A DNA stretch of 64,000 nucleotides from Pseudomonas lopnurensis (lineage in GTDB: Bacteria; Pseudomonadota; Gammaproteobacteria; Pseudomonadales; Pseudomonadaceae): positions 171,019-235,018 of the forward strand of contig NZ_JADDIX010000099.1 of NCBI RefSeq assembly GCF_015070855.1, written 5' to 3'. Under the pieces are notes generated by a model. That model was not told the DNA's origin, searched no databases, and saw only the letters and a program-made list of their open reading frames with translations. This document shows, piece after piece, positions 35,989-40,105 of this stretch. A program made the position numbers and the translations under genes. Numbering within the stretch: position 1 is the first letter of the stretch; each line of letters starts with the position of its first letter.

Positions 35989-37623
35989 ATGCGCCAGGCT
36001 CTGGAAAACCCCTTCTACTACCTCGAGAACTTCCAGCAGGTGCTGAGCTGGGTCGGTCGGCATCATGGCGATCTGCTGGACGAGCACGAGCGCGCCTTCC
36101 TCGACCGTTTTCCCCAGTTGCCGCAGGCATCGCGCGCCTTGCTGGTACGCATGGTCATGCGCAAGGGCGCGCTGTTCCGCGCCAGCAAGCTGCTCTACGG
36201 GGAAATAGGCTGCCCCCATCGAGCCGCGCAGGCGCTTATCGAGCAGGGCTGGGTCGGTCCCGCCCCCGCACTTTCACTGGAACAGCTGTTCGGTTTGCTG
36301 AAAAAGAACGAGCTTGTGCAGATATTCGGAGCTGCCCGAGCGAGCAGCCTGCGTAAATCCGAGCTGCTGGAGAACCTGCGCCCCCATTATTCGGAAGCCC
36401 GGCCCCTGGAGGATTGGTGCGCACAGCTCGACGACAAGGTGTTCGCCCTGTGCATCGATCCGCTGTGCGAACGCCTGCGCCTGATGTTCTTCGGCAACAT
36501 CCATCAGGACTGGTCCGAGTTCGTCCTCGCCGATCTCGGCATCTATCGCTACGAGCAGGTCCCGTTCAGCTCCGAATCGCGTGCATTCCAAAGCCGCGCC
36601 GATCTGGATGCCTATCTCCAACTGCAGCGCAGCCGTGAACGCTTCGATGCCGGTGACGACCTTGCCGAGGTGCTGGCGGACATTCCCCGGCAGCCTTACG
36701 CCAACGACTGGCTGGAAAGCCGCCGCGGCAAGCTGCTGCTGCGCATCGCCCAGCAGTTCGAGCGCCTCGGCGAGCTGCCCGAGGCCTTGCGCCTGCACGC
36801 CTGCAATCGCTATCCCACTGCCCGGGAACGGGCCATCCGTGTGCTGGAGCGCTGCGGCCAGCCCGAGGCTGCGCTGGAACTGGCGCTGCAGGCCCAGGCG
36901 GCCCCGGAAAGCGAGCATGAGACACAGCAGCTCGAACGCCTGTTGCCAAGGCTGCAACGCGCCCTGGGGTTGCAGACGGCCCGCTGTCACCGCACGGAGC
37001 CGGAACGTATCGACCTCGTCCTGCCCCGTGCCGCCAGCGTCGAGCAAGCCGTGCGCGAACACTTGTCCACGCCGCAGGCCCCGCTGTACTACGTGGAGAA
37101 CGCCCTGGTCGGCTCGCTGTTCGGCCTGCTCTGCTGGGAGGCGATCTTCGCTCCGCTACCCGGCGCGTTCTTCCACCCGTTCCACTGGGCGCCGGCGGAT
37201 CTGAACCGGCCGGACTTCCATCAGCGGCGTGCCGAGCTGTTCGCGCGCTGCCTCGCCTGTCTGGACAGCGACGATTATCGCGATTGCATTCAGCGCACCT
37301 TTCAGGCGAAGTTCGGCATCCACAACGCGTTCGTCGCCTGGGGCCTGCTCGATGACCAGCTGCTGCAGCAGGCGCTGGACTGCCTGCCCGCCGCGCACCT
37401 GAAGCTGATGTTCCAGCGCATCCTCGCGGATGTCTGTGGCAATCGCTCCGGCCTGCCGGACCTGATCCAGCTCTGGCCGAGCGAACGGCGCTACCGGATG
37501 ATCGAGGTGAAGGGGCCCGGAGACCGCCTGCAGGACAACCAGAAGCGCTGGCTCGACTATGCCCACCGGCACGGTCTGCCCGTCGCGGTGTGCTACGTGC
37601 GATGGGCGGAGACGGCGCAGTGA
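35989..37623 (+). CDS. FAN1-type structure-specific nuclease (VRR-NUC domain)
   Basis: 544 residues. The layout matches bacterial FAN1: an N-terminal region (NPFYYLENFQQVLSWVGRHH, then FPQLPQASRALLVRMVMRKG), a helical TPR-like middle (about 225-330), and a C-terminal VRR-NUC nuclease with SGLPDLIQLWPSERRYRMIEVKG and DNQKRWLDY, giving the PD...EVK catalytic set. FAN1 cuts 5' flaps and helps unhook interstrand cross-links. The ATG follows a GTG by one codon; ACGGA lies upstream. Its stop overlaps the start of the next gene (GTGA), which is a nuclease-helicase. Confidence 0.92.
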   Translation: MRQALENPFYYLENFQQVLSWVGRHHGDLLDEHERAFLDRFPQLPQASRALLVRMVMRKGALFRASKLLYGEIGCPHRAAQALIEQGWVGPAPALSLEQLFGLLKKNELVQIFGAARASSLRKSELLENLRPHYSEARPLEDWCAQLDDKVFALCIDPLCERLRLMFFGNIHQDWSEFVLADLGIYRYEQVPFSSESRAFQSRADLDAYLQLQRSRERFDAGDDLAEVLADIPRQPYANDWLESRRGKLLLRIAQQFERLGELPEALRLHACNRYPTARERAIRVLERCGQPEAALELALQAQAAPESEHETQQLERLLPRLQRALGLQTARCHRTEPERIDLVLPRAASVEQAVREHLSTPQAPLYYVENALVGSLFGLLCWEAIFAPLPGAFFHPFHWAPADLNRPDFHQRRAELFARCLACLDSDDYRDCIQRTFQAKFGIHNAFVAWGLLDDQLLQQALDCLPAAHLKLMFQRILADVCGNRSGLPDLIQLWPSERRYRMIEVKGPGDRLQDNQKRWLDYAHRHGLPVAVCYVRWAETAQ

Positions 37624-39899
37624 GCTATCGCGTGGCGGTGCGGGCGCTCTGCGAGTTCACCGCCAAGACCGGAGACTTGGACCTGCGCTTCACCCCTTCG
37701 CCGACCGCGCAGGAAGGCATCGCCGGCCACGCACAGGTCACCGCCCGGCGCGGTGCGGGCTACGAACGCGAGGTCGCGTTGGAAGGCCAATACCGGCAAT
37801 TGACGATACGTGGCCGTGCCGATGGCTACGATCCACAGCGCAACCGGCTGGAAGAGATCAAGACCTTTCGCGGCGATCTCGAACGCCAGCCCGACAACCA
37901 TCGGCACCTGCACTGGGCCCAGGCCAGGGTGTATGGCTGGCTGCTGTGCCAGGCGCGCGGTCTCGCTGAAATCGAGCTGGCGCTGGTGTACTTCGACGTG
38001 GCCAGCCACAAGGAAACCCTGCTCGTCGAACGCCACACCGCCGGTGCCCTGCGTGATTTCTTCGAGACCCTGTGCCAGCGCTTCGTCGACTGGGCCGAAC
38101 AAGAACTCGTGCACCGCACCGAGCGCGACCAGGCGCTGCGCGCACTGCGCTTCCCCCATGCGGATTTCCGCAGCGGCCAGCGTCAACTGGCCGAGGCGGT
38201 GTACAAGGCCGCCTGTACCGGCACCACGCTGATGGCCCAGGCGCCGACCGGCATCGGCAAGACGCTCGCTACGCTGTTCCCGCAGCTCAAGGCCTTTCCG
38301 GGCCAACGGCTGGACAAGCTGTTCTTCCTCGCCGCGAAGACCTCCGGCCGACGCCTGGCCCTGGATGCGCTCCAAACGCTGCAGCGCAACGGGGCGACGA
38401 CGCTGCGCGTGCTGGAACTGGTGGCGCGGGAAAAGTCCTGCGAGCACCCGGACAAGGCCTGCCATGGCGAGGCCTGCCCGTTGGCGAAGGGCTTCTACGA
38501 TCGCCTGCCGGCGGCCCGCGCCGCGGCGCTGGAACATCCGCTGCTGGACCAGGCGGCGCTACGCGACGTCGCTCTCTCCCACCGGGTCTGTCCCTACTAC
38601 CTCAGCCAGGAGCTGGCGCGCTGGGCCGACGTGGTGGTGGGCGACTACAACTACTACTTCGACATCGGCGCCCTGCTCCACGGCCTGACGCTGAGCAACG
38701 AATGGCGCGTCGGCGTGCTGGTGGACGAAGCGCACAACCTCCTGGATCGCGGCCGCGGCATGTATAGCGCGGAGCTCGATCAACGCATTTTCAAAGGGTT
38801 ACGGCGCAAATCTCCAGCACAACTGAAGAGCCCGCTCGCGCGCATCCAGCGCTGCTGGAACGAGCTGCACCGCGATCAGGCGCAGGCCTACCAGGTGCTG
38901 CCCGAACTGCCCCTCAAGCTGCTCGGTGCGCTGCAGCAGGCCGTCAGCGCCATCACCGACTACCTGGGTGAAAACCCCGGCGGCCTCGATCCGGAGCTGC
39001 AGCGCGCCTATTTCGATGCCATGCACTTCTGCCGCGTGGCCGAACTGTTCGGTGAGCACTCGCTATTCGACTGCAACCTGCTGCCGACCCCCTCACGCAA
39101 CAAGACCAGCCTGTCGCGGCTGACCTTGCGCAACGTCGTCCCGGCGCCGTTTCTTGCGCCACGGCTGGCGCTGGCGCGCTCCTGCGTGCTGTTTTCCGCC
39201 ACCCTGAGCCCGCGGCGGTTCTACGCCGACACCCTCGGCCTGCCGTCGGCGAGCGTGTGGCTGGACGTCGAGTCGCCCTTTCGCAGCGATCAGCTGCGGG
39301 TTCGCCTGGCCCGCCACGTCTCCACCCGCTATCAGCACCGTGCGGCATCGCTGGCGCCGATCGTCGAGCTGATCGCCCGCCAATACCGTGAACGCCCCGG
39401 CAATTACCTGGCCTTCTTCAGCAGCTTCGAGTACCTGCAACAGGTCACCGCCCTGCTGTGCAGCCGGTACCCTGACATCCCGTTCTGGGAGCAGACCCGC
39501 GGCATGCAGGAAGACGCCCGCGCCGCTTTTCTCGCCCGCTTCACTAGCCACAGCAGCGGCATCGGCTTCGCCGTGCTCGGTGGGGCATTCGCCGAAGGCA
39601 TCGACCTGCCCGGGCAGCGCCTGATCGGCGCGTTCATCGCCACCCTCGGGCTGCCCCAGGTCAACCCGGTCAACGAGCAGTTCAAGTCGCGCATCGAAGC
39701 CTTGTTCGGCCGGGGCCATGGCTACGACTACACCTATCTCTATCCCGGCTTGCAGAAGGTCGTACAGGCCGCGGGGCGTGTGATCCGCACCCAGGACGAC
39801 GAAGGCTCCGTGCACCTGATCGACGACCGCTTCGGCCGTCCGCAGGTACGCCGGCTGCTGCCGAACTGGTGGAATATGGGCGCCGATGCCGACAGCTGA
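37620..39899 (+). CDS. XPD/DinG-type Fe-S helicase with N-terminal PD-(D/E)XK nuclease-like domain
   Basis: 759 residues from the GTG that overlaps the FAN1 stop; GGAG lies 8 bases before it. The N-terminal 180 residues read GRADGYDPQRNRLEEIKTFR followed by HWAQARVYGWLL, the D...ExK...Q/Y pattern of Cas4/RecB-like nucleases. The helicase part has Walker A QAPTGIGKT, an Fe-S cysteine set (SCEHPDKACHGEAC, later HRVCPYY), DEAH in VDEAHNLLD, and late motifs LFSATLSP and QAAGRVIRTQDDEG. With FAN1 it should form a nuclease-helicase repair unit. A slightly longer ATG start at 37602 is possible. Confidence 0.9.
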   Translation: MSYRVAVRALCEFTAKTGDLDLRFTPSPTAQEGIAGHAQVTARRGAGYEREVALEGQYRQLTIRGRADGYDPQRNRLEEIKTFRGDLERQPDNHRHLHWAQARVYGWLLCQARGLAEIELALVYFDVASHKETLLVERHTAGALRDFFETLCQRFVDWAEQELVHRTERDQALRALRFPHADFRSGQRQLAEAVYKAACTGTTLMAQAPTGIGKTLATLFPQLKAFPGQRLDKLFFLAAKTSGRRLALDALQTLQRNGATTLRVLELVAREKSCEHPDKACHGEACPLAKGFYDRLPAARAAALEHPLLDQAALRDVALSHRVCPYYLSQELARWADVVVGDYNYYFDIGALLHGLTLSNEWRVGVLVDEAHNLLDRGRGMYSAELDQRIFKGLRRKSPAQLKSPLARIQRCWNELHRDQAQAYQVLPELPLKLLGALQQAVSAITDYLGENPGGLDPELQRAYFDAMHFCRVAELFGEHSLFDCNLLPTPSRNKTSLSRLTLRNVVPAPFLAPRLALARSCVLFSATLSPRRFYADTLGLPSASVWLDVESPFRSDQLRVRLARHVSTRYQHRAASLAPIVELIARQYRERPGNYLAFFSSFEYLQQVTALLCSRYPDIPFWEQTRGMQEDARAAFLARFTSHSSGIGFAVLGGAFAEGIDLPGQRLIGAFIATLGLPQVNPVNEQFKSRIEALFGRGHGYDYTYLYPGLQKVVQAAGRVIRTQDDEGSVHLIDDRFGRPQVRRLLPNWWNMGADADS

Positions 39900-40018: not shown

Positions 40019-40105
40019 GCCCGGATGGCGAAATTGGTATACGCAAGAGACTTAAAATCTCTCATCCGAAAGGGTATGCGGGTTCGACCCCCGCTCCGGG
40101 CACCA
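40019..40105 (+). tRNA. tRNA-Leu (anticodon TAA)
   Basis: 87 bases including an encoded CCA. Acceptor stem GCCCGGA pairs with TCCGGGC; the anticodon loop is CTTAAAA (anticodon TAA, reading UUA); a long variable arm (CTCATCCGAAAGGGTATG region) is typical of class II leucine tRNA; the T arm is GGGTTCGACCCCC. All parts are intact. Confidence 0.97.

Follow-up and report, generated by a model that had tools for sequence, protein, structure and literature searches.

In a 2025 review, proteins with an N-terminal nuclease joined to an XPD/DinG helicase were given the name EndoDinG (PMC11981726, section 3.7). Section 3.7 gives as EndoDinG catalytic residues the same four motif residues plus a lysine that occur in the protein described below, and states the endonuclease activity of the Bdellovibrio EndoDinG as unpublished; neither an operon partner nor SOS control is given in that section, unlike what is proposed for the gene pair reported here, and a term search of the main text of the review returned neither "FAN1" nor "VRR". 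The nuclease PaFAN1 (structures 4r89 and 5y7g) is treated alone in the excerpts consulted, without a helicase partner. The MmcB protein of Caulobacter, a PD-(D/E)XK endonuclease under SOS control, protects from mitomycin C and cisplatin, and a role for it in cross-link removal has been hypothesised (PMC9578287). A 64,000-nucleotide stretch of Pseudomonas lopnurensis DNA (contig NZ_JADDIX010000099.1, positions 171,019 to 235,018; hereafter the window) carries a FAN1 homologue whose gene overlaps that of an EndoDinG-type protein. We consider it likely that FAN1, or the alternative nuclease gene found in its slot in many Burkholderiales and here named ALT, forms with the nuclease-helicase one SOS-induced repair operon acting on cross-links or flaps.

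As shown in Table 1, the two genes lie on the same strand behind a LexA box. A sequence-only reading had proposed that a FAN1-type VRR-NUC nuclease ends inside the start codon of a protein joining a PD-(D/E)XK domain to an XPD/DinG Fe-S helicase; its limits, 35989-39899, are exact, and the observation is confirmed. The FAN1 frame runs from an ATG at 35989, with an alternative GTG three bases earlier, to a TGA at 37621-37623 that falls within the GTG start of the helicase (37620-37622). All three domains of the family are present (FAN1_HTH, 7.7e-38; FANC_SAP, 6.5e-17; VRR_NUC, 3.4e-35), as are the catalytic D, E and K of an intact PD...E.K motif, and 4r89 and 5y7g align over the length of the protein (E ~5e-194). 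It thus resembles both PaFAN1 and human FAN1 in its helix-turn-helix (HTH), SAP and VRR-NUC domains and catalytic motif, and by likeness to PaFAN1 would be expected to cut 5' flaps or unhook cross-links. The helicase start codon is at the -4 position in 52 of 53 FAN1-helicase loci (the exception being L033), a count that is weak evidence because about three-quarters would be expected there once the frame and the TGA stop are conserved.

Table 1. Features of the FAN1-helicase locus in window coordinates, with the related LexA-type sites of the host genome.
Feature	Position	Strand	Basis
LexA (SOS) box CTGTATAAATAGCCAG, 46 bp 5' of FAN1 start codon	35927..35942	+	consensus scan
FAN1 homologue, 544 aa: FAN1_HTH, SAP, VRR-NUC	35989..37623	+	open reading frame, Pfam domains, PDB matches
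VRR-NUC catalytic motif D491...E506-V-K508	37459..37512	+	PD...E.K intact
GTGA overlap of FAN1 stop and helicase start, 4 bp	37620..37623	+	sequence
EndoDinG-type protein, 759 aa: predicted N-terminal PD-(D/E)XK nuclease and XPD/DinG Fe-S helicase	37620..39899	+	domains, alignment, 9kqh
Predicted N-terminal nuclease domain, ~aa 1-180; H37, E51, D68, E79, K81, Q101, Y105	37620..38159	+	invariant in alignment
Walker A APTGIGKT, aa 208-215	38241..38264	+	sequence
Fe-S cysteines C274, C281, C286, C324	38439..38591	+	sequence
DEAH box, aa 369-372	38724..38735	+	sequence
tRNA-Leu (taa), just 3' of the operon	40019-40105
Four CTGTATWWATNNNCAG sites in the host genome (L261-L264)	G000:C7:48981, C11:50991, C36:36342, C100:206945

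The second protein, which ends at a stop at 39897-39899, has a further in-frame GTG at 37590 that would give a 769-aa reading; conservation among relatives begins at the ~37620 start. It contains an XPD/DinG motor (Helicase_C_2, 2.3e-36; DEAD_2, 2.5e-12) with a four-cysteine Fe-S domain. In an alignment of the window protein with nine relatives that are 34-68% identical to it, the seven N-terminal residues listed in Table 1 are unchanged throughout, and these include the H, E, D, E and K of an EndoDinG-type PD-(D/E)XK domain. The solved DinG of Finegoldia magna, 9kqh, is homologous from end to end, N-terminal domain included (E 2e-116), and the N-terminal 187 aa by themselves match PDDEXK_1 weakly (E 4.7e-4; 20.6 bits with a cut-off of 22). 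The proposed junction of a PD-(D/E)XK domain with an Fe-S helicase is therefore upheld, and a nuclease fold is predicted for the N-terminal region from the invariant motif residues and the full-length solved homologue. Finegoldia magna belongs to a different phylum from the window host, and no paper on 9kqh was found in the literature searched. Helicases of the FANCJ/XPD family share the Fe-S superfamily with the window protein through weak sequence matches; they are not known to carry a nuclease domain.

A scan of the window with the LexA consensus CTGTATAAATATACAG, allowing up to three mismatches, returns a single site (0.01 expected), the box CTGTATAAATAGCCAG in the FAN1 promoter region. 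Across the whole host genome, four sites carry the pattern CTGTATWWATNNNCAG and none its reversed control. The genes 3' of these sites are a recN-like gene (RecN/SMC-type), a DinG-like helicase, a Y-polymerase (IMS domain) and FAN1. A 16-mer identical to CTGTATAAATAGCCAG stands 5' of the recN-like gene. Because the other three sites precede recN-like, dinG-like and Y-polymerase genes, FAN1 and the helicase very probably constitute an SOS operon, as judged from the DNA sequence. The box also agrees with the SOS box CTGN2TN7CAG given for P. aeruginosa (PMC9578287). Taken together, the four sites offer a compact picture of the host LexA regulon.

The pairing of the two genes extends well beyond the window. 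In a class-wide sample of 303 genomes, with FAN1 called by FAN1_HTH over its cut-off and the helicase by a profile E of 1e-50 or less, FAN1 was found in 14, the helicase in 11 and both in 10 (hypergeometric p 7e-15, uncorrected for kinship). In eight of these ten genomes the genes are directly adjacent and co-oriented; in G349 open reading frames intervene, and in G145 the genes lie on different contigs. The intervening frames of G349 (L138:532-1229) are two short ones on the opposite strand, which we take to resemble a HigAB toxin-antitoxin pair. Of 56 genomes from the order, 11 gave a long match; FAN1 is its neighbour in 10 of them, and L011 lacks FAN1 within the 1.5 kb covered. Upstream neighbours were also assigned for 80 named loci (of the 387 confirmed relatives, the best 80, so that close relatives are over-represented): FAN1 is directly upstream of the helicase in 53, ALT in nine, a contig end in one, FAN1 is elsewhere in the genome in four, and neither nuclease is upstream in 13. 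The locus at the contig end (L029) belongs to a genome with FAN1 at the end of another contig, and five of the 13 genomes have ALT elsewhere, leaving eight with neither. Absences of the helicase in the genome surveys are soft, as three to five helicase candidates were scored per genome (the top three in the class sample). Rare adjacency, which would have spoken against the earlier proposal, is not what is seen: the genes lie side by side in nine of ten co-occurring genomes (counting G349) and in 53 of the 80 named loci.

The four loci with FAN1 elsewhere are those of the P. syringae group, in which FAN1 is kept in all four genomes and each has one helicase copy; the operon is there split into two loci (L041, L050, L052 and L064, and L103-L106). 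The helicase is single-copy in all eight genomes checked. At five loci from Cupriavidus and Caballeronia (L060, L079, L082, L089 and L092), a lone helicase stands behind a LexA box and neither FAN1 nor ALT was found in the genome; a third partner may be encoded elsewhere. The 20 neighbouring proteins scanned at loci lacking FAN1 are otherwise unrelated, being housekeeping or unnamed.

These neighbours bear on the label typeIV_DinG, under which PADLOC would make the pair a phage or plasmid defence module. The PADLOC model PDLC01439 matches aa 187-761 of the 769-aa reading (4.6e-121), but the match is restricted to the helicase part, and PADLOC has no match for FAN1 or ALT, nor for the first 187 aa of the helicase protein. 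No CRISPR-associated gene was seen among the 20 neighbours, and the LexA box and the one copy per genome fit repair, so that a defence role is highly improbable. The identity as a type IV CRISPR DinG or other defence protein was rejected, there being no whole-protein match and no defence or CRISPR genes among those neighbours.

ALT, a protein of ~240-290 aa, precedes the helicase at L065, L073, L075, L076, L077, L081, L083, L093 and L094, with several starts overlapping, and FAN1 is absent from all nine genomes. One Burkholderiales-like family was sampled with 200 genomes: 85 have the helicase, 103 have ALT and 77 have both (Fisher p 4e-23), and FAN1 occurs in five. All five FAN1 genomes have the helicase adjacent and none has ALT, so that among the 85 helicase genomes FAN1 occurs in five, ALT in 77 and both in none (exclusion p 2e-6 before kinship). 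ALT was likewise found in none of 12 further FAN1 genomes (the four split ones and eight of the 53 adjacent). Of the 77 genomes with ALT and the helicase, 35 have ALT no more than 1.5 kb from the helicase, in 32 cases upstream and in the same orientation; in the other 42 ALT is located elsewhere. On a quick helicase tree (125 rows, midpoint root, long branches flagged), the deepest branches are FAN1-linked and the starred branches force at least five changes of the ALT-adjacent label, implying that the pairing with ALT was gained or lost several times. Two of the counts carry a caveat: G418, counted as having ALT without the helicase, has a helicase-like 452-aa open reading frame just downstream, and G553, counted as having neither, has an ALT remnant before the helicase.

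The apparent exchange of FAN1 for an unrelated nuclease in relatives suggests that nuclease and helicase form one repair machine. It also bears on the possibility of operon inertia, by which two independent SOS genes would be held together through co-regulation with no joint mechanism. Such independence would account for the survival of both genes after splitting in all four P. syringae-group genomes and for the eight of 80 loci where the helicase has neither nuclease, but inertia alone does not predict that FAN1 and ALT use one position and are mutually exclusive among helicase genomes, and we regard it as unlikely. The interpretation given in the sequence-only reading, a set plausibly for cross-link or flap processing, is well supported, and a joint function of the pair gains further support from the LexA box and from the apparent replacement of FAN1 by a nuclease of MmcB-like fold.

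The assignment of ALT rests on a model, since ALT has no significant Pfam, NCBIfam or PADLOC match. A profile of nine ALT sequences had no PDB match, and one of 70 had a single match, 3dnx (E 0.032). An AlphaFold2 model from the nine sequences was unusable (predicted local distance difference test, pLDDT, 41.7), and the model from 70 members reached a pLDDT of 93.3. Residues 70-225 of the latter superpose on 3dnx with a Z of 14.1 and a root-mean-square deviation of 2.3 over 128 residues, the next nuclease being 8em1 (Z 9.0), and a 66-aa piece of 3dnx matches PF06319 (MmcB-like) at 3e-24. All 70 members retain the PD...E.K residues D119, E138 and K140. For residues 3-72 the matches are mostly winged helices of MarR type (Z up to 9.3); the fold is common, and the likeness shows no function. 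ALT is thus confidently modelled as a winged helix followed by an MmcB-like PD-(D/E)XK nuclease. It resembles MmcB in the predicted fold of the catalytic domain, the PD...E.K motif and the SOS link, and differs in its extra N-terminal MarR-like winged helix and in lying outside PF06319, against which it scores below the Pfam cut-off (two of 70 members match at all, best E 0.039). From these fold matches, ALT would share with FAN1 the combination of a helix-turn-helix domain and a C-terminal PD-(D/E)XK nuclease. The ALT family, present in 103 of the 200 family genomes and often away from the helicase, also occurs at L239:531-1229. A distant homologue lies at L109:1168-1869, a locus in which no helicase was found and whose neighbours we take to be efflux-like and LemA-like genes.

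The LexA box recurs across these loci. Each was given a score out of 24 for the best box within 200 bp upstream, a score devised after the first boxes had been seen. Scores of 19 or more were obtained at 43 of 53 FAN1 loci. The background rates were 1.5% for random windows drawn from these loci, 2.7% for dinucleotide shuffles and 3.1% for windows preceding other long open reading frames; for scores of 21 or more the corresponding values were 25 of 53, 0.15%, 0.17% and 1.1%. ALT operons reached 21 or more in seven of nine cases, a level attained by none of 350 random windows, none of 900 shuffles and 1.7% of windows preceding other long open reading frames. Stand-alone helicases reached 19 or more in six of 13 cases (random windows, 0.6%). 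At the split loci of the P. syringae group, a weak box of the form CTG-N10-CAG precedes FAN1 in four of four and the helicase in four of four, the helicase boxes reaching 18 in three of the four and 19 in none.

Several observations weigh against a single SOS repair operon. A box scoring 19 or more is absent from ten of the 53 FAN1 loci. Four of the 14 FAN1 genomes in the class sample lack a helicase among the top three candidates scored, 26 of 103 ALT genomes lack one, and the eight loci with neither nuclease in the genome indicate that the helicase can act without either. Kinship inflates the p-values, and four of the five FAN1 genomes of the family form one clade. A UV-C (ultraviolet) study speaks for the operon in one respect and against it in another: PA1865 and PA1866 are damage-responsive genes of changed expression, and they are placed outside the three known regulons and outside the known LexA regulon (PMC12796719). 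That study reports PA1865 as raised by ciprofloxacin and cites it as nuclease-associated, guiding cross-link unhooking; since it cites the PaFAN1 structure papers for PA1865, PA1865 is taken to be PaFAN1, and PA1866 would, by consecutive locus tags only, be the helicase.

From what is observed (the layout of the two genes, their conserved pairing, the LexA box, and partner nucleases that exclude each other), a working order of events can be proposed for a single SOS-induced operon. LexA would repress the promoter 5' of FAN1; DNA damage would lift LexA, and both proteins would be made from the overlapping frames. The XPD-like helicase would then travel along single-stranded DNA in the 5'-3' direction where a fork has stalled or a flap or cross-link is present, the structure-specific partner (FAN1 here, ALT in many Burkholderiales) would nick near the junction and so unhook the cross-link or cut the flap, and the RecB/Cas4-type domain of the helicase might trim or cut the displaced strand. 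The helicase may interact physically with its partner nuclease. The same parts could instead make up an SOS-regulated set for end resection or replication-fork repair of Dna2/RecJ-like type, not specific to cross-links, with FAN1 or ALT providing generic 5'-flap cutting. The N-terminal domain does fall in the RecB/Cas4/Dna2-like group (PDDEXK_1; PMC11981726, section 3.7), and the host LexA box is common to recN-like and DinG-like genes; both alternative partners, however, come from nuclease families linked to cross-link repair, FAN1 (PaFAN1) and MmcB, which makes this alternative unlikely. FAN1 and MmcB have cross-link repair in common, so this is also what the helicase beside which they alternate most likely serves, and by analogy with PaFAN1 and MmcB a cross-link or flap role is proposed for the pair.

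No description of the FAN1-helicase pair, its LexA control or the exchange of FAN1 and ALT was found in the literature searched, most subscription journals lying outside it. Each part is known or close to a known one; that literature appears to hold no description of the module or of the ALT family. FAN1 is a nuclease relevant to human disease. Structures of bacterial FAN1 have been solved, with no partner named in the literature consulted; EndoDinG has been named but given no role, and MmcB acts as a nuclease against cross-link damage. The linkage reported here joins FAN1, EndoDinG and MmcB-type nucleases, predicts the same job for FAN1 and the unnamed ALT family, and makes the FAN1-helicase mechanism testable in simple bacteria. 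Evenly balanced, in our judgement, is the broader proposition of an unrecognised SOS cross-link-repair machine in Pseudomonadota, built from a constant 5'-3' EndoDinG and a structure-specific nuclease that can be exchanged. The nuclease would be FAN1 among relatives from Pseudomonas, Halomonas, Burkholderia and Massilia; among Comamonadaceae-like relatives it would be a new family, winged helix plus MmcB-like nuclease, that has several times replaced FAN1. If true, the module would be a functional bacterial counterpart of the FAN1-FANCJ/XPD pathway, and MmcB-type nucleases would be functional equivalents of FAN1.

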